From a virus, in the IMG/VR virus record IMGVR_UViG_3300042879_001491, positions 1-23,880 of that record: a stretch of DNA of 23,880 nucleotides. One strand, 5' to 3'. The notes under the pieces were generated by a model. It did no database searches. It was given only the letters and a program-made list of their open reading frames with translations, and was not told the DNA's origin. Made by a program: the position numbers and the translations under genes. Of this stretch, positions 2,357 to 15,667 are shown piece by piece; the first letter of the stretch is position 1, and every line of letters starts with the position of its first letter.

Positions 2357-4357
2357 TTATGTACGTGTTGCCCGTGCGAAGCACCGGCAGTTTACAGCGT
2401 TCCAAGCAGACAGCCCCGGGCCCGATGGGTATGGCGTGACCTCACCACCGACGGTAAAGTTGCCGTTCGCATCTTCGAACGTTCCGTGGGCTGCGTCGTG
2501 CTCAGGACGTGCGCCAGCTAGCGCAGCCCACTGACGACGTATGCCACCGATTTCGTCCCAGACGTTTTTCTGCACAGTGCCCGTGGTGGCCGTGGCCGTC
2601 GTCCGTGCGATCAGTTCGGCACGGGACTGCTTGACCGTGGGGATGACTGGCATCTTGAGACTTTCGAACTTCTCTTTCAATAAGCCGGACAGTTCACTTT
2701 CAGATAGCCGAGGGTTATTTACGATGAGTTCCTGCACTTCCGTGCGGATTGTCCCCACACTCTCTGAGATCATGTCAGCACTTCTTTGCATCCCCTCACG
2801 TCGTGCCTTGCCAAACTCACCCTCTGGTGCATCGCTGTTGACCTCCTCAGCTGCCAGCCTCAGCACCAAGGCCACGAGCTCCTCACGGCTGCCCTCGGTG
2901 GCGTCTGCAAATTCTCTCTCCCATACATCGAGGCTGAAGTCATCGATCTTGAGCTCCAGCGATTTTGTCCCCGTTATGCTCTTGTATAGCTTGTCAAGTG
3001 CTCGGCCCCATTGCCTGGCGATCTTCACAGAAGCTTTGGTGAGCAGCTCGTCATAGGCTTTGACATAGACCTGATCGTCTGTAGAGTGCAGCCATGCCTT
3101 TGTCTCCGGGCCAATGACGACCACGGTCTTTGGCTCCTCGGTGTCAATGTCCACGATTACGGAAGGCTGATCACCTGCGACTTTGCGAAAGGGCGCAGCC
3201 GTAACAGCCGCACCTCCTTTCAGGCTAAGGGTCTGCACATCGCCATTGTCTGGGCTGTCGTCACTGATGTCGTCATCAGTCATGCCGATGGCCTCTGATG
3301 CGATGGCCTGACCTGCAAGGGCTTGCACCGTGCTCAGGTCAAAGCCGATCTGCACACCAAAGTCTGGGATGGCCAGCTGCGCATTCAGCTGCTCAGCCAA
3401 CAGATTCCAGAACGGCACACGTGACATTGTAGTGAAGTCCTTGCTGGCCTGCTCGAAATTGGAATAGGTCGATGTGGCCATACCAGCGTGCGTAAACGCA
3501 ATGATGGGATGCACACGGTACACGCCACAGATGCGTGTCTCGTATTGACCGAACGTATCAGACAGACCCATTTCAGCCCAGTCTAGGGCAAGACGCTTGA
3601 TGTCCTTGATGCCCCACATATGACCGACCGCGCCGCGCCGATCACCACCATATTTGCGCTTGAAGGTTCTTTCGGCTGCGGCGATTTGTTCGGTCGTGAG
3701 TTCTTCGTCGTAGATCACGACGGTCTTTGGCATCGCGTCGTTCTTGTGGATGTTGAATACCGTCGCACTGGCTTCGTTGAAACCCTCGATGGATTGCGAT
3801 GCCATATCGATTGGTGACCCTCCACCCATCGGCTTCTCGGGATCATACCAGAAGCCCACCAGATGCACGACGTCTGTCTTCTCGACACGGTATGTCTGCA
3901 TCCCGTCATAGTAGAGATAGTAGGCAACATCACCCCAGCCGTCATTGACGGGGGCAAATCTCTTGTCTGTGTACCATCTGATGCCGATCACAGCACCGCT
4001 GCCATTGCGCAGCTTGTAACCGTAGGCATTGCCACCGATGCAAAGGATGGTCATGATTTCAGACATGGTCACACGCCACTGGTCACGAGTCAGCAGCTCG
4101 ACAATGGGCTGCTCGAAGTCGTAGTCACCATTGGGCTGGATAACTCCTATCTGTGCTTCTGGCATCATGAGGGAATACGCCAGAGTGCATCCTTGCGCAA
4201 TGGGGTTGGCTTTCCACATGGCATAGGCTGCGGGCCAGTTCGTTACTGGCGTGAAACTATGACGGCTCCAAATATCACCCACGATGGCTGGAACGTCATT
4301 GACCGCCTGTTCGCCGGTTGGACTGATGTACTGTTTGATTCGAGTTAGGATACTCAT
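2357..4357 (-). CDS. Portal protein with C-terminal MuF-like domain
   Basis: A single 666-aa ORF joins two head proteins. Residues 1 to about 370 look like an HK97-family portal, the dodecameric DNA gate at one head vertex: the family-like stretch ILCIGGNAYGYKLRNG, the VVHLVGFWYDPEK region, and the late motif TSTYSNFEQASKDF. Residues ~370-480 are an acidic and basic linker. From about 585 the protein matches the Mu gpF-like head-morphogenesis domain: RTTATATTGT, Trp610, HDAAHG with His624, then a conserved ending NAVNCRC at 653-659. I see no stop or frameshift between the parts. In many phages these are two adjacent genes. No Shine-Dalgarno motif precedes the ATG (bases CCGACTACC). The gene lies 18 bases after the terminase stop. 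Confidence 0.9.
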   Translation of the reverse strand: MSILTRIKQYISPTGEQAVNDVPAIVGDIWSRHSFTPVTNWPAAYAMWKANPIAQGCTLAYSLMMPEAQIGVIQPNGDYDFEQPIVELLTRDQWRVTMSEIMTILCIGGNAYGYKLRNGSGAVIGIRWYTDKRFAPVNDGWGDVAYYLYYDGMQTYRVEKTDVVHLVGFWYDPEKPMGGGSPIDMASQSIEGFNEASATVFNIHKNDAMPKTVVIYDEELTTEQIAAAERTFKRKYGGDRRGAVGHMWGIKDIKRLALDWAEMGLSDTFGQYETRICGVYRVHPIIAFTHAGMATSTYSNFEQASKDFTTMSRVPFWNLLAEQLNAQLAIPDFGVQIGFDLSTVQALAGQAIASEAIGMTDDDISDDSPDNGDVQTLSLKGGAAVTAAPFRKVAGDQPSVIVDIDTEEPKTVVVIGPETKAWLHSTDDQVYVKAYDELLTKASVKIARQWGRALDKLYKSITGTKSLELKIDDFSLDVWEREFADATEGSREELVALVLRLAAEEVNSDAPEGEFGKARREGMQRSADMISESVGTIRTEVQELIVNNPRLSESELSGLLKEKFESLKMPVIPTVKQSRAELIARTTATATTGTVQKNVWDEIGGIRRQWAALAGARPEHDAAHGTFEDANGNFTVGGEVTPYPSGPGLSAWNAVNCRCFARATRT

Positions 4358-5551: not shown

Positions 5552-5930
5552 CGAGCTCGCCAGCAGAGCGAGCACCGCCCAAGTTCACAGTGATCGATGT
5601 GTCACCCTTGACCGTCTGCTCGACCTCTTGGCGATCCCGCCATCCGAGGACGTTCTTAGCGATGAAGATGGCCACAGAGCCATTGCCCTTCTCGATGTTC
5701 CCCGTAGCATGGTCATCGAGGAGTGAGGCGATACGATGCTTGCATGACATGCGCACCTGCTTCACTGCGGCGGAAAATTCTGGATAGATCTTTTCCCATT
5801 CCCTGACAGTCTCGTCGTGGATGCCGAGGTGCTTGGCAAGTTGCTCGATGTACATACCACGCTCGATGGCCTCAGCCATGAGCGGCTCGATTTTATCCCA
5901 GTTGTACTCTCGTGGTCTCCCTGCTGGCAT
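5535..5930 (-). CDS. terS: Terminase small subunit
   Basis: The 131-aa protein probably recognises the packaging start site and hands DNA to the large subunit. It begins MPAGRPREYNWDKIEPLM and has an N-terminal helix-turn-helix: AEAIERGMYIEQLAKHLGI followed by HDETVREWEKIYPEF (about residues 19-52). A helical core with SVAIFIAKNVLGWRDRQ (about 85-102) resembles the oligomerisation part of many phage small terminases. The tail is glycine-rich and low in structure. It overlaps the large subunit gene by 17 bases. No Shine-Dalgarno sequence precedes its ATG. The 34 bases upstream are AT-rich and hold a short direct repeat. Confidence 0.88.
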   Translation of the reverse strand: MPAGRPREYNWDKIEPLMAEAIERGMYIEQLAKHLGIHDETVREWEKIYPEFSAAVKQVRMSCKHRIASLLDDHATGNIEKGNGSVAIFIAKNVLGWRDRQEVEQTVKGDTSITVNLGGARSAGELDAGNS

Positions 5931-6725: not shown

Positions 6726-7215
6726 AGCTATGCCACCTCTTCGTTGTTGGATGTTCGTACCATTCGAATCGACCCTCATGGCATGGGTACATCAGTGCCA
6801 GAGTTGTCTTGCGTCCCCATTGCCTCTCCTGCTCAGCACCCGCCATGACCTCGGGCCACGTCAAAGACCTGCAGAGCTGCACCCCTTCGAAGGTCTCGAC
6901 ATCGGCAGGGGGATCGTCTGGCATCTCGCCCTCCCATGCGTCCCCCGGCACGTGCCCTGTCAAGTCAAAGAATCGCTGCTCTTCAGGTGTTAGGGGTGAA
7001 GGGGGTGAAAAGGCGTTTTCTATAAGTTCCCCTTTTACTATTGATTTTAAGTCTTTCAAAACAAGGGTTTTACCCCTACACCCCCTACACTCGTGTAAGT
7101 CGCAGTTTTTACAACGTGTTACGGGTTTTACTTCAGACGAAATAGCCTCTTTAGGTGTTAATCTTTGCCCAAAATACCCCTCATCGAGGTCTCCTTCGTC
7201 AAAATTGAACGGCAT
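6709..7215 (-). CDS. Zinc-ribbon-like protein of unknown function
   Basis: The 168-aa product is not a family I recognise. The start at 7215 is chosen because AAAGGGGG precedes it; an in-frame start at 7263 lacks this. Residues 33-46 read TRCKNCDLHECRGC, a pair of CxxC motifs spaced by four residues, suggesting one bound zinc. The C-terminal part is rich in Trp, Pro and acids (GHVPGDAWEGEMPDDPP, LTWPEVMAGAEQERQWG, HEGRFEWYEHPTTKRW). It overlaps the primase-helicase gene by 17 bases and the VRR-NUC gene by 17 bases, so it belongs to the replication unit. It may be an accessory nucleic-acid-binding protein. The part coding for residues ~35-70 is locally more AT-rich than its neighbours. Confidence 0.6.
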   Translation of the reverse strand: MPFNFDEGDLDEGYFGQRLTPKEAISSEVKPVTRCKNCDLHECRGCRGKTLVLKDLKSIVKGELIENAFSPPSPLTPEEQRFFDLTGHVPGDAWEGEMPDDPPADVETFEGVQLCRSLTWPEVMAGAEQERQWGRKTTLALMYPCHEGRFEWYEHPTTKRWHSYATFG

Positions 7216-9346
7216 CTTCGCCCCCTTTCGACAGATCAGGCACCTGCTGAGAACCGTAGGCAACCCGAGCCGTACTAAGTATTTCTACTAAGTAACCAGA
7301 CTTCAGGTGGCCTTGATGACGTTGTGCTCGGTGCTCATAACCAGCCCTCGTCATAGCCCTTCCGACGTCTCTGATGAACTGAGCATTCAAGTTGATCGGC
7401 ACAGCGAACATATCGGAGTGTTTCTTTTGGATGATCGATGCGATCTCAGTGGCACTCATGCGGGGCCTTGTGCCGTCGTCTTCGACCTTCTTGCACCACG
7501 TGTTAACCAGGTCGTCAGCCATCGAAGTGGCCTCGAATTGCTGGTTTTGACGCTGCACAAAATCATTCATTTCTGAGTCAAACCACGACTGGCCACCGTT
7601 CTTGTATAGGTACAATGCTTGAGCCCACAGCCTCTCAATGTCGATCTTCTGCAGGGCTTCTAAGTCCACGACACCACCGACCACCAGCACCGGGAACCGT
7701 CTCGACCCGGTCTCGTCGGTTAGGAACGTGCGCTTGTTCACAGACCCTGCAAAGCTCACACGTCTAGGAACTGTGATATGGTAGTGCGCATAGGGGTGAC
7801 GGATCGTGTGCTGGTCTTTAGACGTGGTCTGTTTGATGAGATCGACCGACTTCTTCGTCATCCCTTCGAGCTCGTCATCGACCACGATGAAGCACTGGCT
7901 GAGCTTAATTTCGTTGTCCTTGTCACCAGTTATCATCCCTTCGAAGTAATGGTCACGACGTAGGGCCTTAGGTGTCAGGTGACGCAGGAACGTTGTCTTG
8001 CCCACCCCTTGCGCCCCCTGCAGGATCGGCATCACGTGATTGGGCTTGTGCTCGAGTGCGCACGCCACGCACCCTAGTATCCACGTCTGCATGACCTGTA
8101 GCACATACTTCTGCTGTGCTGATGCCGTCATCGATGTAATTGATTCCGAGGGTGGAATCAGACTGCACAGAGCAGCTATCTCATCACGGTCACCGGGCTC
8201 CCACTTCTCGAGTGAGTCAAACCAATCCTTGATGGGGTCGTGCATCGGTGAGAAGTCCGAATCAAGAAGCTTATAGACACGCTCCTCTGTGATCTTCAGG
8301 CCAGCAGCCCTCATGCGTCTGCATTCGGAGTTGATCCAGTAGTCAGTGACACGTTCCCACGTCGATGAGTCTGCGCTCTTGTATTCGATCACGTTGGTGA
8401 CGATGTTCTTCCGAAAGTTATAGCCAGACTGCAGGAAAGTTTCTACTTTAGTTGTCACTTCGACTGCTGACTTGGGTGGCTCCTGATAAAATCCCGGCCG
8501 AGGGTTCCAGCCGTGACGCTTGGCAGCCCAGATAAGGGTGGCGGCGTGAACTCGTGAAAGTCCAGACTTGGCAATCTCAGTGTACGGGATCTCAGATGGT
8601 GACCACTGCTCGAGCATGGCGATCACATCAGGCCCCGTGCCGACTGCGTCGAATACTGCAGCTGCTATCTTCTTCCAGTCGATATGGGTCCCGGGCCGAG
8701 GTGGGATGTAGCGCAGCATGTCACGCACATCATCGATGCCGATCTTGGCAGCACTGAAGGTGTCATACATGCGCTGTTCGTGGTGCTGGTCTTCAGATGA
8801 CCTGACGAGGGCTTCGACGGTGCGATCACTCAGGACGTTCCCCCAGATGATCGTGCCTGCATTCACAGAGCCGTACCAGATACGGACGTTGTCTTTGGCG
8901 TTCTGATCTCCACCGAGCTTGTCAATGAGAGCAGCCACGATGGCACGGTACTCGTCAGAGCTCTGAACTGGCTTTGGTAGCACGAACATGATCCTGTAGC
9001 GAGGCTCGGCTTCAGTATGGCTTGCCGTGGTGTATGCAAAGCTGGCGTGTGCTTTGAGCCATGGGTCGTCTTTCAAGGCTGCGAACGGTGTCGAGGTCTT
9101 GTCAATATCGACACCGATGATCTGTGCTGACTTGAATGCAGCCCCCTCACGCTTGCACAGGCCATCGTCATTGACAGCAAGGTCAGCGCAGCAGATGGGG
9201 TGTCCCATGATGGTCAGGTGCTGCATGATCTCTTCTGGAGACATGACCATTGGTTTCAGCCGATTGGATAGGTCATAGAAATCGGCTTTGGAAGCCTTGC
9301 CCATGACTGAGCTGTTGATGCTGAGTCGAATCAGTGGCGAGTTCAT
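7199..9346 (-). CDS. Primase-helicase (primase-like N-terminus, PriCT-like, VirE/VapE-type ATPase)
   Basis: This 715-aa protein is the probable replication engine. Residues ~1-185 look like a BT4734/archaeo-eukaryotic-type primase domain: GVDIDKT (79-85, the DxD metal site), YRIMFVLPKP (117-126) and RIWYGS (155-160). Residues ~205-285 resemble a PriCT linker (HIDWKKIAAAVFDAVG). The C-terminal half is a VirE/VapE-type P-loop helicase: Walker A GAQGVGKTT (444-452), acidic Walker B FIVVDDELEG (486-495), sensor region SFAGSVNKRTFLTDETGSRR (531-550) with a probable arginine finger. GAGGG lies ten bases before the ATG. No DNA polymerase gene is visible, so the phage may use the host replicase or a polymerase outside the window. 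Which exact primase subfamily it is remains open. Confidence 0.88.
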   Translation of the reverse strand: MNSPLIRLSINSSVMGKASKADFYDLSNRLKPMVMSPEEIMQHLTIMGHPICCADLAVNDDGLCKREGAAFKSAQIIGVDIDKTSTPFAALKDDPWLKAHASFAYTTASHTEAEPRYRIMFVLPKPVQSSDEYRAIVAALIDKLGGDQNAKDNVRIWYGSVNAGTIIWGNVLSDRTVEALVRSSEDQHHEQRMYDTFSAAKIGIDDVRDMLRYIPPRPGTHIDWKKIAAAVFDAVGTGPDVIAMLEQWSPSEIPYTEIAKSGLSRVHAATLIWAAKRHGWNPRPGFYQEPPKSAVEVTTKVETFLQSGYNFRKNIVTNVIEYKSADSSTWERVTDYWINSECRRMRAAGLKITEERVYKLLDSDFSPMHDPIKDWFDSLEKWEPGDRDEIAALCSLIPPSESITSMTASAQQKYVLQVMQTWILGCVACALEHKPNHVMPILQGAQGVGKTTFLRHLTPKALRRDHYFEGMITGDKDNEIKLSQCFIVVDDELEGMTKKSVDLIKQTTSKDQHTIRHPYAHYHITVPRRVSFAGSVNKRTFLTDETGSRRFPVLVVGGVVDLEALQKIDIERLWAQALYLYKNGGQSWFDSEMNDFVQRQNQQFEATSMADDLVNTWCKKVEDDGTRPRMSATEIASIIQKKHSDMFAVPINLNAQFIRDVGRAMTRAGYEHRAQRHQGHLKSGYLVEILSTARVAYGSQQVPDLSKGGEDAVQF

Positions 9347-9347
9347 A

Positions 9348-9521
9348 CTACAGCACCCTCGCTATCACTGAGCAGAGGTAAATGACGATCTGCGCAAGGA
9401 TCAATGCAGACATGAATGCAATGCTCAGGAGCACCCCGAGGATAACGTGCACGAGTATCTCGACCGATTTAGGCAGTTGATACCGACGCAGCTCATCGCC
9501 ACGTTTCAAGTTAATGTTCAT
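9348..9521 (-). CDS. Small single-pass membrane protein
   Basis: A 57-aa protein starting MNINLKRGDELRRYQLPKS, then a hydrophobic segment of about 30 residues from VEILVHVILG through ALILAQIVIYLC to the end. The basic N-terminus and hydrophobic C-terminus suggest an N-in topology with one long or two short membrane helices. GGAG is six bases before the ATG at 9521, and the ATG overlaps the previous stop by four bases, which rules out the longer in-frame ORF starting at 9680. It ends one base before the primase-helicase ATG. It could be a membrane anchor for replication, a superinfection or host-takeover factor, or less likely a holin, since no endolysin is nearby. Confidence 0.65.
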   Translation of the reverse strand: MNINLKRGDELRRYQLPKSVEILVHVILGVLLSIAFMSALILAQIVIYLCSVIARVL

Positions 9522-9886
9522 ACGGGCTCCGTAGTTATCGGCTCCCACGTGGTAAGCCGGAATTGTGTATAATATTCGTGATACTTGGCAGTGTACTTGA
9601 TGACGTCCGTCTCGACCTGGTAACCACGTTTCCGCAGCGTTGCGATGCACCATCTCAGTACGGTCGGTGACATCTTCCACAGCTCACGAGCCATCACGGT
9701 GGTCAGCCATTCCCCCGATCGCATGTAGTCGAAGACCTGTTGAATTATGCCGTGGTTATTCTTGTGTTCGGCATATAAATAGATCCTCATGTCAGGTGCT
9801 GATGGCCTTGCAGACTGGGCACGTTCTCGAAACATGGCAGCGGCTTGCTCGGTGTAGATGAGTCTGGTGGCCCACTTGGTTTTCAT
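9518..9886 (-). CDS. Probable winged-helix DNA-binding protein
   Basis: The 122-aa product is not a named family to me. Residues ~48-95 read like a winged helix: GIIQQVFDYMRSGEWLTTVM, ARELWKMSPTVLRWCIATLR and KRGYQVETDV, i.e. three helices, with SPTVLRWCIATL as recognition helix, and a beta wing. This pattern is common in small phage proteins that regulate or help replication. Its ATG overlaps the previous stop by four bases (9883-9886) and its stop overlaps the membrane-protein gene (9518-9521). It sits two genes upstream of the primase-helicase, so a replication accessory or transcription role is an inference from context. Confidence 0.6.
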   Translation of the reverse strand: MKTKWATRLIYTEQAAAMFRERAQSARPSAPDMRIYLYAEHKNNHGIIQQVFDYMRSGEWLTTVMARELWKMSPTVLRWCIATLRKRGYQVETDVIKYTAKYHEYYTQFRLTTWEPITTEPV

Positions 9887-10194
9887 CGCATCTTCTCGGC
9901 AATGTGTAAGATAGCGTAGGCCCGGTCAATGCGACCATCAGAATCATCGGGATAATAGTCCATCTCATATGCCACAGCCGACGGCAGAACATGTCGCAGC
10001 GTTTCGCAAAGCCTTTTGTTGATCGCTGCAGTCCAGCCCAGACGCTCTGCTGCTTCTCGTAAGGCTGCATTCGCCACGCCATCGGTGGTCTCGATTTCGT
10101 CAGCCAAGATGTGCAAGGCCTTGACTAGCGTTTCCGTGGATGTGCGATTGGCGGTTTGTTCGCCATCGTGTGATTCTTGGTAGGTTCGGCTCAT
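9883..10194 (-). CDS. Hypothetical small helical protein
   Basis: A 103-aa protein of unknown function, starting MSRTYQESHDGEQ. The middle is one long helical region (ETLVKALHILADEIETTDGV, then ANAALREAAERLGW) and the tail is acidic then helical (YYPDDSDGRIDRAYAILHI). No catalytic motif is visible. The ATG at 10194 is fixed by GAGGT upstream and by the four-base overlap with the stop of the previous gene; the longer ORF from 10302 would lie inside that gene. It is part of the coupled chain of small early genes. Confidence 0.6.
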   Translation of the reverse strand: MSRTYQESHDGEQTANRTSTETLVKALHILADEIETTDGVANAALREAAERLGWTAAINKRLCETLRHVLPSAVAYEMDYYPDDSDGRIDRAYAILHIAEKMR

Positions 10195-10499
10195 GGCACG
10201 ACCTCGTTGTAAATGTCGGCGATTCGTTGGGCGGTAGATATGCCATCTACATCTATACGTAGTGTAGCTACAACAGATCCATCTTCGCCTACGATATTCC
10301 ACCTGCTCATGAGTTTATTCCAGTGAGCCGTCCACCGCTTCGGTTTGACGTAGGGGGCGGGGAGTGGTTGCCATGGCTCACCTAGTAAAAGACATTTCGC
10401 GATTTGAAATATCACGACTCCATCTCTCATACCAAGAACCGCACCATCACTGTCGGCATCCTCCACCGTCGGCAGTCTGTCTGTTATCCATTCACTCAT
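10191..10499 (-). CDS. DUF551-like protein
   Basis: The 102-aa product opens MSEWITDRLPTVEDADSDGA and continues to GEPWQPLPAPYVKPKRW at about residues 40-56. A Trp-Ile start, a LP..D segment and a W.PLP.P ending are the hallmarks of DUF551, a small domain very common in phages and prophages whose function is not known. The remaining half (WNIVGEDGSVVATLRIDVDG and DIYNEVVP) is extra. Its start is preceded by AAAGGAGGGCAGCC in the last codons of the upstream gene, with an ATGA overlap. Confidence 0.7.
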   Translation of the reverse strand: MSEWITDRLPTVEDADSDGAVLGMRDGVVIFQIAKCLLLGEPWQPLPAPYVKPKRWTAHWNKLMSRWNIVGEDGSVVATLRIDVDGISTAQRIADIYNEVVP

Positions 10500-10705
10500 G
10501 GCTGCCCTCCTTTGGCTTTGGCTTCAATCTGCTTGCGCTTTATTTCATGGAACCGTTCGTTCCATTCGCTGCACATTAGCTCATACTCTGCGTGCAAAGC
10601 GTCTACTGGGCTTATCGCCTGGTTCAAAACGTCAATGTCGATCATCCTCGATATTCGCAGACCTTCGCCTACAATTGCAATTTGTAGCATTGGCTTGTCA
10701 CTCAT
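10496..10705 (-). CDS. Hypothetical small protein
   Basis: A 69-aa protein: MSDKPMLQIAIVGEGLRISR, an acidic middle, then a charged helix EYELMCSEWNERFHEIKRKQ ending AKAKGGQP. No family recognised. The end is forced by DNA: the 18-base stretch that encodes AKAKGG is repeated in the next gene upstream and supplies the Shine-Dalgarno sequence of the following gene. Its own start overlaps the previous stop (10702-10705). The short length, good ribosome-binding site and tight packing support a real gene. Confidence 0.6.
   Translation of the reverse strand: MSDKPMLQIAIVGEGLRISRMIDIDVLNQAISPVDALHAEYELMCSEWNERFHEIKRKQIEAKAKGGQP
10505..10522 (-). repeat. 18-bp junction repeat, copy 1
   Basis: GCCAAAGCCAAAGGAGGG, identical to 10711-10728. 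It encodes the end of the 69-aa protein (AKAKGG) and at the same time provides the GGAGG site for the DUF551-like gene that starts at 10499. Confidence 0.75.
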
Positions 10706-10977
10706 GGCGTCCCTCCTTTGGCTTTGGCTATGGCGGTTCGTGCAAGGGTTCTCATGTCCACTCTATAGGCATAGCTGAGATTACCTAGCATGTCGTCTAT
10801 CGGCTCCAATGCCGCCAGCATCTCAGGGGCGGCGCAAATCAATTCCATGTCGACCGGCTCGCAAGCGTAAATGTCAGTAGCTATGATGTCGTTGTTCGAA
10901 TCTAGGATAACGTAGCCGTGATGCATCATGTCTACCCATCGCCACGGCCCGGGCGTATGCTTTCGTGCTGTGCTCAT
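10702..10977 (-). CDS. HTPGPW-type conserved phage protein
   Basis: The 91-aa product starts MSTARKHTPGPWRWVD and has ELICAAPEMLAALEPIDDML at about residues 45-64. HTPGPW plus a LI.AAPEML.AL segment is the signature of a very widespread small phage/prophage protein of unknown role. It ends IAKAKGGTP, matching the end of the next gene in the chain because both carry the same ribosome-binding junction. The ATG overlaps the previous stop by four bases, with GGAG eight bases upstream. Confidence 0.72.
   Translation of the reverse strand: MSTARKHTPGPWRWVDMMHHGYVILDSNNDIIATDIYACEPVDMELICAAPEMLAALEPIDDMLGNLSYAYRVDMRTLARTAIAKAKGGTP
10711..10728 (-). repeat. 18-bp junction repeat, copy 2
   Basis: Identical 18 bases to 10505-10522 and in the same phase. 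It encodes the end of the HTPGPW-type protein and the ribosome-binding site of the 69-aa gene starting at 10705. Confidence 0.75.
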
Positions 10978-11180
10978 GGTGTTTCTCCATTCTCACGTGC
11001 GGCGATCATGGCGTCGGCCCGTTCGTAGCAAGCCTTTGCAATTCTTACAGCATCAAGTGAAGAGCTGCCTGCACTTGCCAACGCCTGCCCTGCAAACCAG
11101 TCCCGCAGGGTCATGCCGTAGCTCCAGCAACCATTTCCGCGCGGGAACGCCTGCCCTCCGTCTTTCGGTGCCTTGCTCAT
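10974..11180 (-). CDS. GMTLRDWF-type conserved phage protein
   Basis: The 68-aa product reads GGQAFPRGNG near residue 8, then YGMTLRDWFAGQALASAG (about 21-38), and ends with a helical alanine-rich stretch. GMTLRDWFAGQAL is a recurrent motif of small phage and prophage proteins with no known function. Its start overlaps the upstream stop (11177-11180) and GGAAGGGAG precedes it. It is part of the coupled chain. Confidence 0.7.
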   Translation of the reverse strand: MSKAPKDGGQAFPRGNGCWSYGMTLRDWFAGQALASAGSSSLDAVRIAKACYERADAMIAARENGETP

Positions 11181-11419
11181 TGGGTGCTCCCTTCCAGCTT
11201 TGCGATGGATTTCTTAGCTATTGACCACATGGCTAGCGCCCTTTCTTGGTACGGTGTGCTGTTGTTGTATTCGTAAACATCTGTAATGGCTTTGAACGCT
11301 TGCATGACCTCATCTGTCATAGCTTCGATGTCCTCGTGCCAGATGTATTCGCCGTCTTTCTCTTCGACCATTTCTAGGTTGGCATAGCTACCGAACCTGA
11401 GTGCGTTGTATCGTCTCAC
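11177..11419 (-). CDS. Hypothetical protein with GTG start
   Basis: An 80-aa protein starting at GTG 11419 and reading (M)RRYNALRFGSYANLEMVEE, then an acidic helical part (DIEAMTDEVMQAFKAITDVY) and SIAKKSIAKLEG. The longer ORF from 11488 would lie inside the previous gene. The GTG start is supported by a GTGA overlap with that gene's stop and by GGAGG nine bases upstream, the same layout as the other genes in the chain. No family recognised. Confidence 0.62.
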   Translation of the reverse strand: MRRYNALRFGSYANLEMVEEKDGEYIWHEDIEAMTDEVMQAFKAITDVYEYNNSTPYQERALAMWSIAKKSIAKLEGSTQ

Positions 11420-11799
11420 GGCTGGCCTCCATTCGCGCTCATCTGCCTGACACAGATCTCGTGGTATAGTGGGATCCGCTGCATCCACGACTTGTTTCGT
11501 TCCCGCTTATTCGGGAGGGTGATCGTCCGTGACGGTGGATGCTTACCTGCTGCCTGCTTACGTGTCCGGTCGGTGATGCGCACAGCCCAGTAGATTTTCC
11601 CATTGGCATTGTAGTGGGCCTCACCTCGGATGGCCAGCCCCGACCGGAGGTGCTGACTGACACCTCCGGTACGTTCGTAGAGTAGGATCTCGGCATCCTG
11701 AATGCCAGCCTGCTTGGCTTCTCGGTAGCGTTCTGCAAACATTCCGTCTGCATCGCATAGCTCTTGAATCTTGGCCGATGGCTGTGCTTGGTTACTCAT
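11416..11799 (-). CDS. Short member of a tandem paralogous pair (IPLYHEIC family)
   Basis: The 127-aa product matches the C-terminal two thirds of the protein encoded just upstream. Shared stretches are ERYREAKQAGIQDAEILLYE, RTGGVSQHLRSGL, a TITLPNKRERNKS segment and RIPLYHEIC near the end. The alternation of TGG, an H.R.GL turn, aromatic strands, RTIT and a final helix containing RIPLYHE recalls the AP2/integrase-like DNA-binding fold, but this is only a visual analogy. The ATG at 11799 is used because it overlaps the previous stop by four bases; an earlier in-frame ATG lies inside that gene. It ends SANGGQP, the last codons carrying the ribosome-binding site of the next gene. Confidence 0.65.
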   Translation of the reverse strand: MSNQAQPSAKIQELCDADGMFAERYREAKQAGIQDAEILLYERTGGVSQHLRSGLAIRGEAHYNANGKIYWAVRITDRTRKQAAGKHPPSRTITLPNKRERNKSWMQRIPLYHEICVRQMSANGGQP

Positions 11800-12377
11800 G
11801 GCTGCCACCCACGCTTTGACGTCTTGCGTGCCTGTTCTGCACAGATCTCGTGGTAGAGTGGGATGCGCAGCGCAGCTGACTTGTCACGTTCGGCTTGCGT
11901 GTCGAATGTGATAGTGCGCCGATTATTCTTGCCTGTCCTGGTGTAATCTAAGACAGCAGCCTGATATAGTCGATGCTCATTCTTCTTGGTGCTCTGCTTC
12001 CAAACTTTCAAACCATTCCTGCGATGCTTTGCATAACCACCGGTCTCTTCATAGACCAGTATCTCCATGTCCAGCACGCCGCACTGCACTGCTGTCTTGT
12101 ATCTCTCGTCAAAGGCTGCATCGATGGCACGCAGTTCTTGTATGCGATTCTCACCAATCTTTCCGGTCTTCTGCAGCCACGTTTTACTTGTATGCTTGCG
12201 CTGTGGCTTGATAGCCTTCGCACCCTTGACCGTCACCTTATCCTGACTCCCGTCACGGTTCTTGACAGTCAATGTCTGGCCAGGCTTGAGATGGCCTAAG
12301 GTTTGCCGAGGGTATGTTACCCTCGGTGCATCTTCCCGCACTACGGCACGGATCCAATTTTTAAGCATGTTAATCAT
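11796..12377 (-). CDS. Long member of a tandem paralogous pair (IPLYHEIC family)
   Basis: A 193-aa basic protein. Residues ~1-75 form a separate part: MINMLKNWIRAVVREDAPRV, then LGHLKPGQTLTVKNRDGSQD, a small beta unit, then a lysine-rich linker. From about residue 95 it is homologous to the next gene: AFDERYKTAVQCGVLDMEIL, VYEETGGYAKHRRNGLKVW, RRTITFDTQAERDKSA and LRIPLYHEICAEQ. The family is unknown to me; the basic charge and AP2-like strand pattern hint at DNA binding. GAGGAG precedes the ATG at 12377, which rules out the longer ORF from 12413. It starts 10 bases after the SSB-like gene. Confidence 0.65.
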   Translation of the reverse strand: MINMLKNWIRAVVREDAPRVTYPRQTLGHLKPGQTLTVKNRDGSQDKVTVKGAKAIKPQRKHTSKTWLQKTGKIGENRIQELRAIDAAFDERYKTAVQCGVLDMEILVYEETGGYAKHRRNGLKVWKQSTKKNEHRLYQAAVLDYTRTGKNNRRTITFDTQAERDKSAALRIPLYHEICAEQARKTSKRGWQP

Positions 12378-12387
12378 GGCAGTCTCC

Positions 12388-13047
12388 TCAGAATGGCAGG
12401 CTGCCGTCATCATCGGTATCTACCGATTCGACGCTGCCTATGGTGGATGATACTGGTACTTCTTTGGCAGCCAGCCGTTGGCCTACCTTCGACTGGAACT
12501 CGCTCACGATGAACTCCATCTGCGCGGTGTCGTCGTAGATGGTCTCACCACGCACCTGCATGACTTCGAGATCAGGCAGCAGAGTGCGCCCTGCAGGCTC
12601 GGGGTCACGTGGCGAGCAGTATGGACGCTCGAGCTTCTGGTCAAACTGCATGACAGTCGTACCGATGATGGTCTTCTTTGGGTTGTCCTTAGGTGCGAAG
12701 CTGTAGGGCTTGATGGTTACCGGCATGCTAGGGTCAAACTTTGCATTGCATAGTGCCATAATGAGGGTCTTGGCATACCCAGACGCATACTTGATGCTCA
12801 GCACATAGGTCTGCTTTGCATCTGAAAATACCAGCTTCCACTGCTTGCCATAGTCGGTATCCACTACAGACGCAGCCACAAGGTTGCCGACAAACTGATC
12901 GTGCACGTACTCATGCACGGTGTTGCCTTCTTTGGTCACGCGCGTGACACAGCCCTCTGCAGGCTCCTTGAGACGGATGCGACATTTACCGTCGCTCATG
13001 GTGAAATACGTTGCACCTGTGATGGTGCTGCTTTGAACGAATCCCAT
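12388..13047 (-). CDS. Probable single-stranded DNA-binding protein
   Basis: This 219-aa protein has no single clear motif in its body, which is rich in beta-prone segments (QWKLVFSDAKQTYVLSIKYA, PVTIKPYSFAPKDNPKKTII). Its last residues are ESVDTDDDGSLPF: an acidic run closed by a hydrophobic residue and Phe, exactly the kind of tail by which SSB proteins and T7 gp2.5 recruit partner enzymes. It lies between a RecB-like nuclease and the replication genes. AAAGGAG precedes the ATG at 13047; the in-frame ORF start at 13143 lies in a GC-rich hairpin and is rejected. I infer an SSB-like role; a different recombination accessory protein is possible. Confidence 0.65.
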   Translation of the reverse strand: MGFVQSSTITGATYFTMSDGKCRIRLKEPAEGCVTRVTKEGNTVHEYVHDQFVGNLVAASVVDTDYGKQWKLVFSDAKQTYVLSIKYASGYAKTLIMALCNAKFDPSMPVTIKPYSFAPKDNPKKTIIGTTVMQFDQKLERPYCSPRDPEPAGRTLLPDLEVMQVRGETIYDDTAQMEFIVSEFQSKVGQRLAAKEVPVSSTIGSVESVDTDDDGSLPF

Positions 13048-15559: not shown

Positions 15560-15587
15560 AATATAACACAATATCTACACCTGTCAA
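15560..15587 (-). promoter_or_regulatory. Strong sigma70-type early promoter
   Basis: The minus strand carries a perfect -35 box TTGACA (15582-15587), a 16-base spacer and a -10 box TATATT (15560-15565, five of six consensus bases). Transcription would start near 15553, about 44 bases before the first early ATG, and serve the operon from 15509 downwards. It lies just after the terminator of the tail transcript. I saw no other match this good in the window. Confidence 0.8.
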
Positions 15588-15597
15588 TAGGCCAGCC

Positions 15598-15645
15598 CAA
15601 AAAAAACAAAAAAAAAATCCCGTAGTGCATCGGGCCACTACGGGA
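15598..15645 (-). terminator. Rho-independent terminator of the tail transcript
   Basis: On the minus strand TCCCGTAGTG (15636-15645) pairs perfectly with CACTACGGGA (15618-15627) around an eight-base loop, followed by nine T, one G and eight T (15600-15617). It is placed 23 bases after the last tail-side ORF, in front of the early promoter. This is the strongest terminator in the window. Confidence 0.93.
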
Positions 15646-15667
15646 CGTGATTGGTTAGTTGTTGTTC

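Follow-up and report, generated by a model that had tools for sequence, protein, structure and literature searches.

An orphan phage protein family from a variable slot of a replication operon, with apparent exchange of a domain

Genes A and B and their surroundings

The window, by which we mean the whole 23,880-nucleotide stretch of DNA that was analysed, is part of a tailed phage that encodes an HK97-type capsid, a prohead protease, a portal, a terminase and a tape measure protein. Two genes, here called A and B, lie within a run of minus-strand genes that encode, in order of transcription, an exonuclease-like protein (by PHROGs), an SSB-like protein, B, A, small ORFs, a 122-aa protein and VapE. 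The features of this run are as follows.

15617-15646, terminator-like hairpin with a long T run; the promoter-like site comes just after it
15560-15587, minus strand, promoter-like site TTGACA-16-TATATT of the extended -10 type, by consensus match only
12388-13047, minus strand, SSB-like protein with an acidic DDDGSLPF tail; upstream neighbour and left border of the variable slot
11796-12377, minus strand, gene B, 193 aa, basic (pI 10.2); N-terminal module plus family domain
12217-12377, minus strand, N-terminal module of B; 91-100% DNA identity with the sister contig L002
11868-12215, minus strand, central segment of B; L002 has a distant family member instead
11841-11867, minus strand, RIPLYHEIC codons in B; apparent downstream crossover of the replaced segment
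11416-11799, minus strand, gene A, 127 aa, basic (pI 9.9); family domain only
11452-11478, minus strand, RIPLYHEIC codons in A
9518-9886, minus strand, 122-aa protein; winged-helix match PF14090 at E=0.004, below cut-off
7199-9346, minus strand, VapE-type primase-helicase (PF05272, E=5.7e-43; phrog_1313); right border of the slot

The replication operon to which A and B belong probably starts at the promoter-like site. The label SSB-like is based on the acidic tail and the position of the protein, with no Pfam or profile match. A distant relative of this protein in L034, a Bacteroidetes MAG (8001-8720), ends in DDVPF, has no Pfam match and lies near ORFs that by reading are exonuclease-like, MazG-like and primase. 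Elsewhere in the window, the portal protein (2357-4357) has a long C-terminal extension whose end pattern is like that of Mu gpF-type minor head proteins (WxxxxxARPEHxxxxG...NCRC); it is possibly a portal/minor head fusion.

The earlier note had described A and B as adjacent, coupled ORFs; both are there, and the ATGA common to the B stop and the A start, a 4-bp overlap, fits coupling. Translation of A most likely begins at ATG 11799 (MSNQ...) rather than at GTG 11808, which can also open the ORF. B most likely begins at ATG 12377 (MINMLKN...), with GAGGAG just before, in an ORF that opens at 12413. The two proteins are 45% identical (54/121 residues, 88.6 bits, E=1e-27 by BLASTP). Their Smith-Waterman score is 217, compared with a mean of 30 and a maximum of 59 in 500 shuffles of one sequence, and with RIPLYHEIC and everything after it removed the score is 159 against a shuffled maximum of 56. 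The likeness of A and B is far above chance. The motifs ERY, EILLYE/EILVYE, TGG, HLRSGL/HRRNGL, RTIT and RIPLYHEIC follow one another in both proteins in the order first reported, and the basic character ascribed to the proteins is borne out by their pI values. The extra basic N-terminal part ascribed to the upstream copy is present in B, with a length of ~65-77 residues and not the ~90 proposed.

One shared feature has another origin. The C-terminal G-x-Q-P of A and B is encoded by the Shine-Dalgarno sequence and ATGA junction to the next gene, and it is no evidence of homology because the same kind of junction forms the ends of several unrelated neighbours, small overlapping genes at 10191-11488 whose products end in KGGTP, KGGQP and NGETP. 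Such common junctions could help cassette shuffling.

Distribution of the family and replacement of a domain in B

Family members have no meaningful match in Pfam, PHROGs, NCBIfam, PADLOC or PDB sequences, in agreement with the earlier description of the family as unrecognised. The phage-database search proposed at that time has now been run by tblastn and gave zero matches in 50,697 phage records, with none in 72,556 plasmids either. A pattern scan of genome_contigs and a search of the L034 genome found nothing, and no occurrence of RIPLYHEIC was found in the literature searched. In IMG/VR the family is present in five viral contigs, the window included, whichever conserved patterns are used; a profile search in 23 related records returned the same five, other conserved patterns yielded no distant relatives among viral contigs, and the N-terminal module of B used alone as a query found no relatives elsewhere. 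By these searches, A and B belong to an orphan phage protein family with no relatives found outside one phage group. None of the libraries searched annotates the family, so a name and limits for it would be useful for annotating this phage group.

The genes between SSB-like and VapE differ across the 23 contigs that have an SSB-like gene. In other phages this stretch holds a 162- or 167-aa gene, nuclease-like ORFs of the T5orf172 (E=2e-4), HNH-like and PDF...EIK kinds, and assorted small genes. On gene content, the stretch is a variable cassette slot. A and B occur together in the window and in L001/L002, and a counterpart of B is found only there; L003, L004 and L005 have A without B, and an unrelated 162-aa gene occupies the B position. 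A relation of the family to these B-position genes (162/167 aa) was rejected at an hhalign probability of 0.1%, and a relation to the 122-aa protein, at 1.8%, was not accepted. The 122-aa protein is present in every A-carrying contig (5/5). Between the window and L003, L004 and L005 it is 92-94% identical with a dS of 0.4-0.6, while VapE there is 41% identical with saturated dS; it is likely, on these distances, to be a more recently exchanged cassette. In L009, the SSB-adjacent slot (5676-5859) has a short ORF that by reading resembles a ribbon-helix-helix protein, followed by a coiled-coil ORF.

Between the window and L002, DNA identity is ~95-97% over most of the compared operon. Within B, the first 55-65 codons have 91-100% DNA identity, the middle falls to ~40% nucleotide identity with about one-third of the protein identical, and the last part, beginning with the RIPLYHEIC codons, is again 100% identical. 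The blastn blocks stop at 12216 and restart at 11867. Because both versions of B are open and keep the invariant residues of the family, the difference is a replaced segment and not a broken gene. The two B family domains are about as distant from each other as either is from A. On this evidence, the family domain of B has been replaced by recombination, with the RIPLYHEIC codons as the downstream crossover, in one comparison (two contigs with B). In the window, the codons for RIPLYHEIC agree between A and B at 25/27 nucleotides, and the crossover therefore lies in the only stretch in which members of the family have enough DNA in common. This stretch may promote exchange. Gene conversion between A and B at the same codons is suggested, and only suggested, by three synonymous sites at which the window A follows B and not other A genes.

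This pair of B genes is a clean natural example of the in-frame replacement of a single domain with both ends kept, and the replaced domain adjoins a conserved paralogue, A, that nearly shares the crossover sequence. Orthologues of A in the four other viral contigs have 85-97% identity. In phages without B, the SSB-like and VapE proteins have only 50% and 41% identity to their window counterparts, and A still has 85-87%. Its dN/dS of 0.06-0.12 indicates purifying selection. By comparison, B is ~45% identical to every A.

Predicted structure and comparison with known families

The AlphaFold model of A, built from 7 sequences, has a pLDDT of 86.6 and a pTM of 0.79. In the numbering of the 130-residue ORF, its elements are helices at 8-20, 22-33, 38-46 and 49-56, strands at 60-66, 72-79 and 93-98, and a long helix at 101-125. 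The second half of the B model has the same element order, and its N-terminal module is of low confidence. The strand-and-helix order proposed earlier for the shared half is thus predicted in both proteins as strands followed by a long helix; the models come from overlapping alignments, and their agreement is expected and not independent. Differing structures, or placement in unrelated known families, had been named as what would speak against kinship; we found the same predicted order and no match to a known family. Foldseek gave no significant match for A or B (E above 0.03). The best structure-comparison Z is 4.1 for A and 4.5 for B, which is within the range of a common arrangement. The recurrent weak matches include SRP14 and dsRBD structures, and also PH and FERM, which are non-nucleic-acid folds.

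The earlier proposal that the shared half is AP2- or integrase-like has no statistical support as regards family membership. PF00847 had no match at E<=1 in the window or its relatives, with a working control; no family member has a Pfam match to the AP2 domain, and the hhalign probability is 0.3%. The AP2 domain is found in phage HNH-AP2 homing endonucleases and in plant AP2/ERF proteins. Like AP2, the A/B domain has three predicted strands followed by a helix, and hhalign places strand 2, strand 3 and the helix start in register. Unlike AP2, it has four extra helices in front, and its invariant RIPxYHEIC lies in a 25-residue helix that is no AP2 feature. The fold matches listed for the two models include no AP2 structure; an AP2-like fold is nonetheless possible. 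The integrase arm-binding domain was likewise rejected: the Tn916 Int N-domain reached an hhalign probability of 0.2% with no meaningful alignment, and there was no Pfam match and no confident Foldseek match. A and B resemble this N-domain in having a small basic domain with three strands and a helix, but as proteins of 127 and 193 aa they differ from integrases in lacking a catalytic recombinase domain.

Among other folds, A and B share with dsRBD and SRP9-14 the predicted order helix-strand-strand-strand-helix, and SRP14 and dsRBD were weak matches for both models (Z ~2-4, not significant). The hallmarks of dsRBDs are a GPxH loop and a KKxAK motif. By reading, both are absent from A and B; the loop in A is NANGK, and the helix starts with NKRERNK in A and TQAERDK in B. 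Homing endonuclease domains (HNH, GIY-YIG/T5orf172, PD-(D/E)XK, LAGLIDADG) had no match in any family member, unlike the slot ORFs of sister phages, which do match T5orf172/HNH. Erf, RecT and Rad52 had no Pfam or PHROGs match in the family, and their fold matches were non-significant. A Sf6-type small terminase (PF20901) was rejected, with one member at a non-significant E=0.058 and an hhalign probability of 0.2% against the window's own small terminase.

Possible roles of A and B

Our preferred reading, to which we give a probability of roughly 0.45, is that A and B are exchangeable accessory cassettes of the replication operon, with B a composite, and that they would serve as nucleic-acid-binding early accessory factors. 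The two lie in the slot between the SSB-like gene and the VapE primase-helicase, where they would be exchangeable cassettes, and B joins a basic N-terminal module to the family domain. We infer nucleic-acid binding, through the helices and the beta-beta-beta-alpha domain, from the basic charge, the predicted element order and the replication-operon context; a basic pI alone is weak evidence, and the fold matches are weak and scattered. Acting early in infection, A and B might modulate phage replication or transcription, or host takeover; that they bind an origin, as the earlier note suggested, is conjecture. The recognition part of B would then be changeable and the target of A fixed, and exchange would alter what B recognises. 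As a class of function, a nucleic-acid-binding accessory or host-takeover protein seems most likely. In kind, the pair is familiar, since exchangeable accessory genes are what it amounts to; the family itself is unannotated. It is improbable that A and B go further and form a two-part DNA-recognition system of a new fold family, the B domain being swapped as a unit at conserved-DNA crossovers and A staying fixed. If they did, the phage could retarget one partner, with a new origin, operator, satellite or site in the host as examples.

The strongest rival, which we consider doubtful, is that the two proteins act in counter-defence or host takeover by binding a host protein instead of nucleic acid; the exchanged middle part of B would then reflect an arms race with variable host targets. 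Host-protein binding would equally explain a B whose middle is replaced and both ends kept, and it is in keeping with a hypervariable cassette slot of early-type genes and with the narrow distribution of the family. The strong conservation of A across otherwise diverged phages, however, is more in line with a fixed partner than with an arms race. The lack of a PADLOC match also counts against this rival, but weakly, as PADLOC lists defence and not counter-defence. Less probable is that A was simply duplicated in tandem on the spot and the copies then diverged by point changes, in line with the earlier note. The genes are adjacent, homologous and overlapping, as duplication would leave them, but the family domains of B and L002 B differ as much from each other as from A, between flanks of 91-100% identity, and three contigs have A without B, with another gene in the B position. 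The conservation of A where B is missing, and the replacement of the B middle in a ~95-97% identical sister phage, argue against that account. From the sequences, the pair is better read as the outcome of exchanged cassettes and domains at a variable slot than of simple duplication and drift. An old duplication may have come before the exchange; the three lineages, compared without an outgroup, leave its order unrooted.

Two further alternatives look to the neighbouring genes. The satellite repressor CapR is reported to originate from T5orf172 nucleases, and nuclease genes at boundaries of exchange have had their DNA-binding domains co-opted (PMC10448857). By this published precedent, A and B could be DNA-recognition domains that now stand alone, either as remnants of homing-endonuclease-type genes or co-opted from them. 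Like CapR-type regulators (PMC10448857), they are small and basic, and their slot is one where sister phages have T5orf172 (E=2e-4), HNH-like and PDF...EIK ORFs. Unlike CapR, they have no detected sequence relation to those nuclease ORFs: hhalign of the family against five of them gave 0.1-0.3%, and neither A nor B has a nuclease domain. We regard this origin as unlikely, about on a par with the two-part system. Least probable of all is a role in single-strand annealing, with A or B as a diverged protein of that kind partnering the exonuclease and SSB-like genes just upstream. The gene order (exonuclease, SSB-like, B, A) would suit such a protein, and the weak fold matches include two Erf models from phages and one RAD52 chain. 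Yet these matches are not significant (E ~0.1-0.35) and there is no Pfam match; A and B are small, and the family is missing from most sister phages that have the SSB-like gene.

Returning to A and B as exchangeable accessory cassettes, what the replacement in B means depends on its domain. Should it recognise specific DNA, the window and L002 alleles of B would be a ready pair for studying how phages retarget accessory DNA-binding proteins; otherwise, the replacement is ordinary phage mosaicism. Both genes also contain perfect inverted repeats. These were rejected as operator sites, since the repeat in A is broken in L003-L005 and the numbers of repeats are near chance. The repeat in A (11643-11670) has 10-bp arms and an 8-nt spacer and is kept in L002; that in B (12306-12326) has 9-bp arms and a 3-nt spacer.
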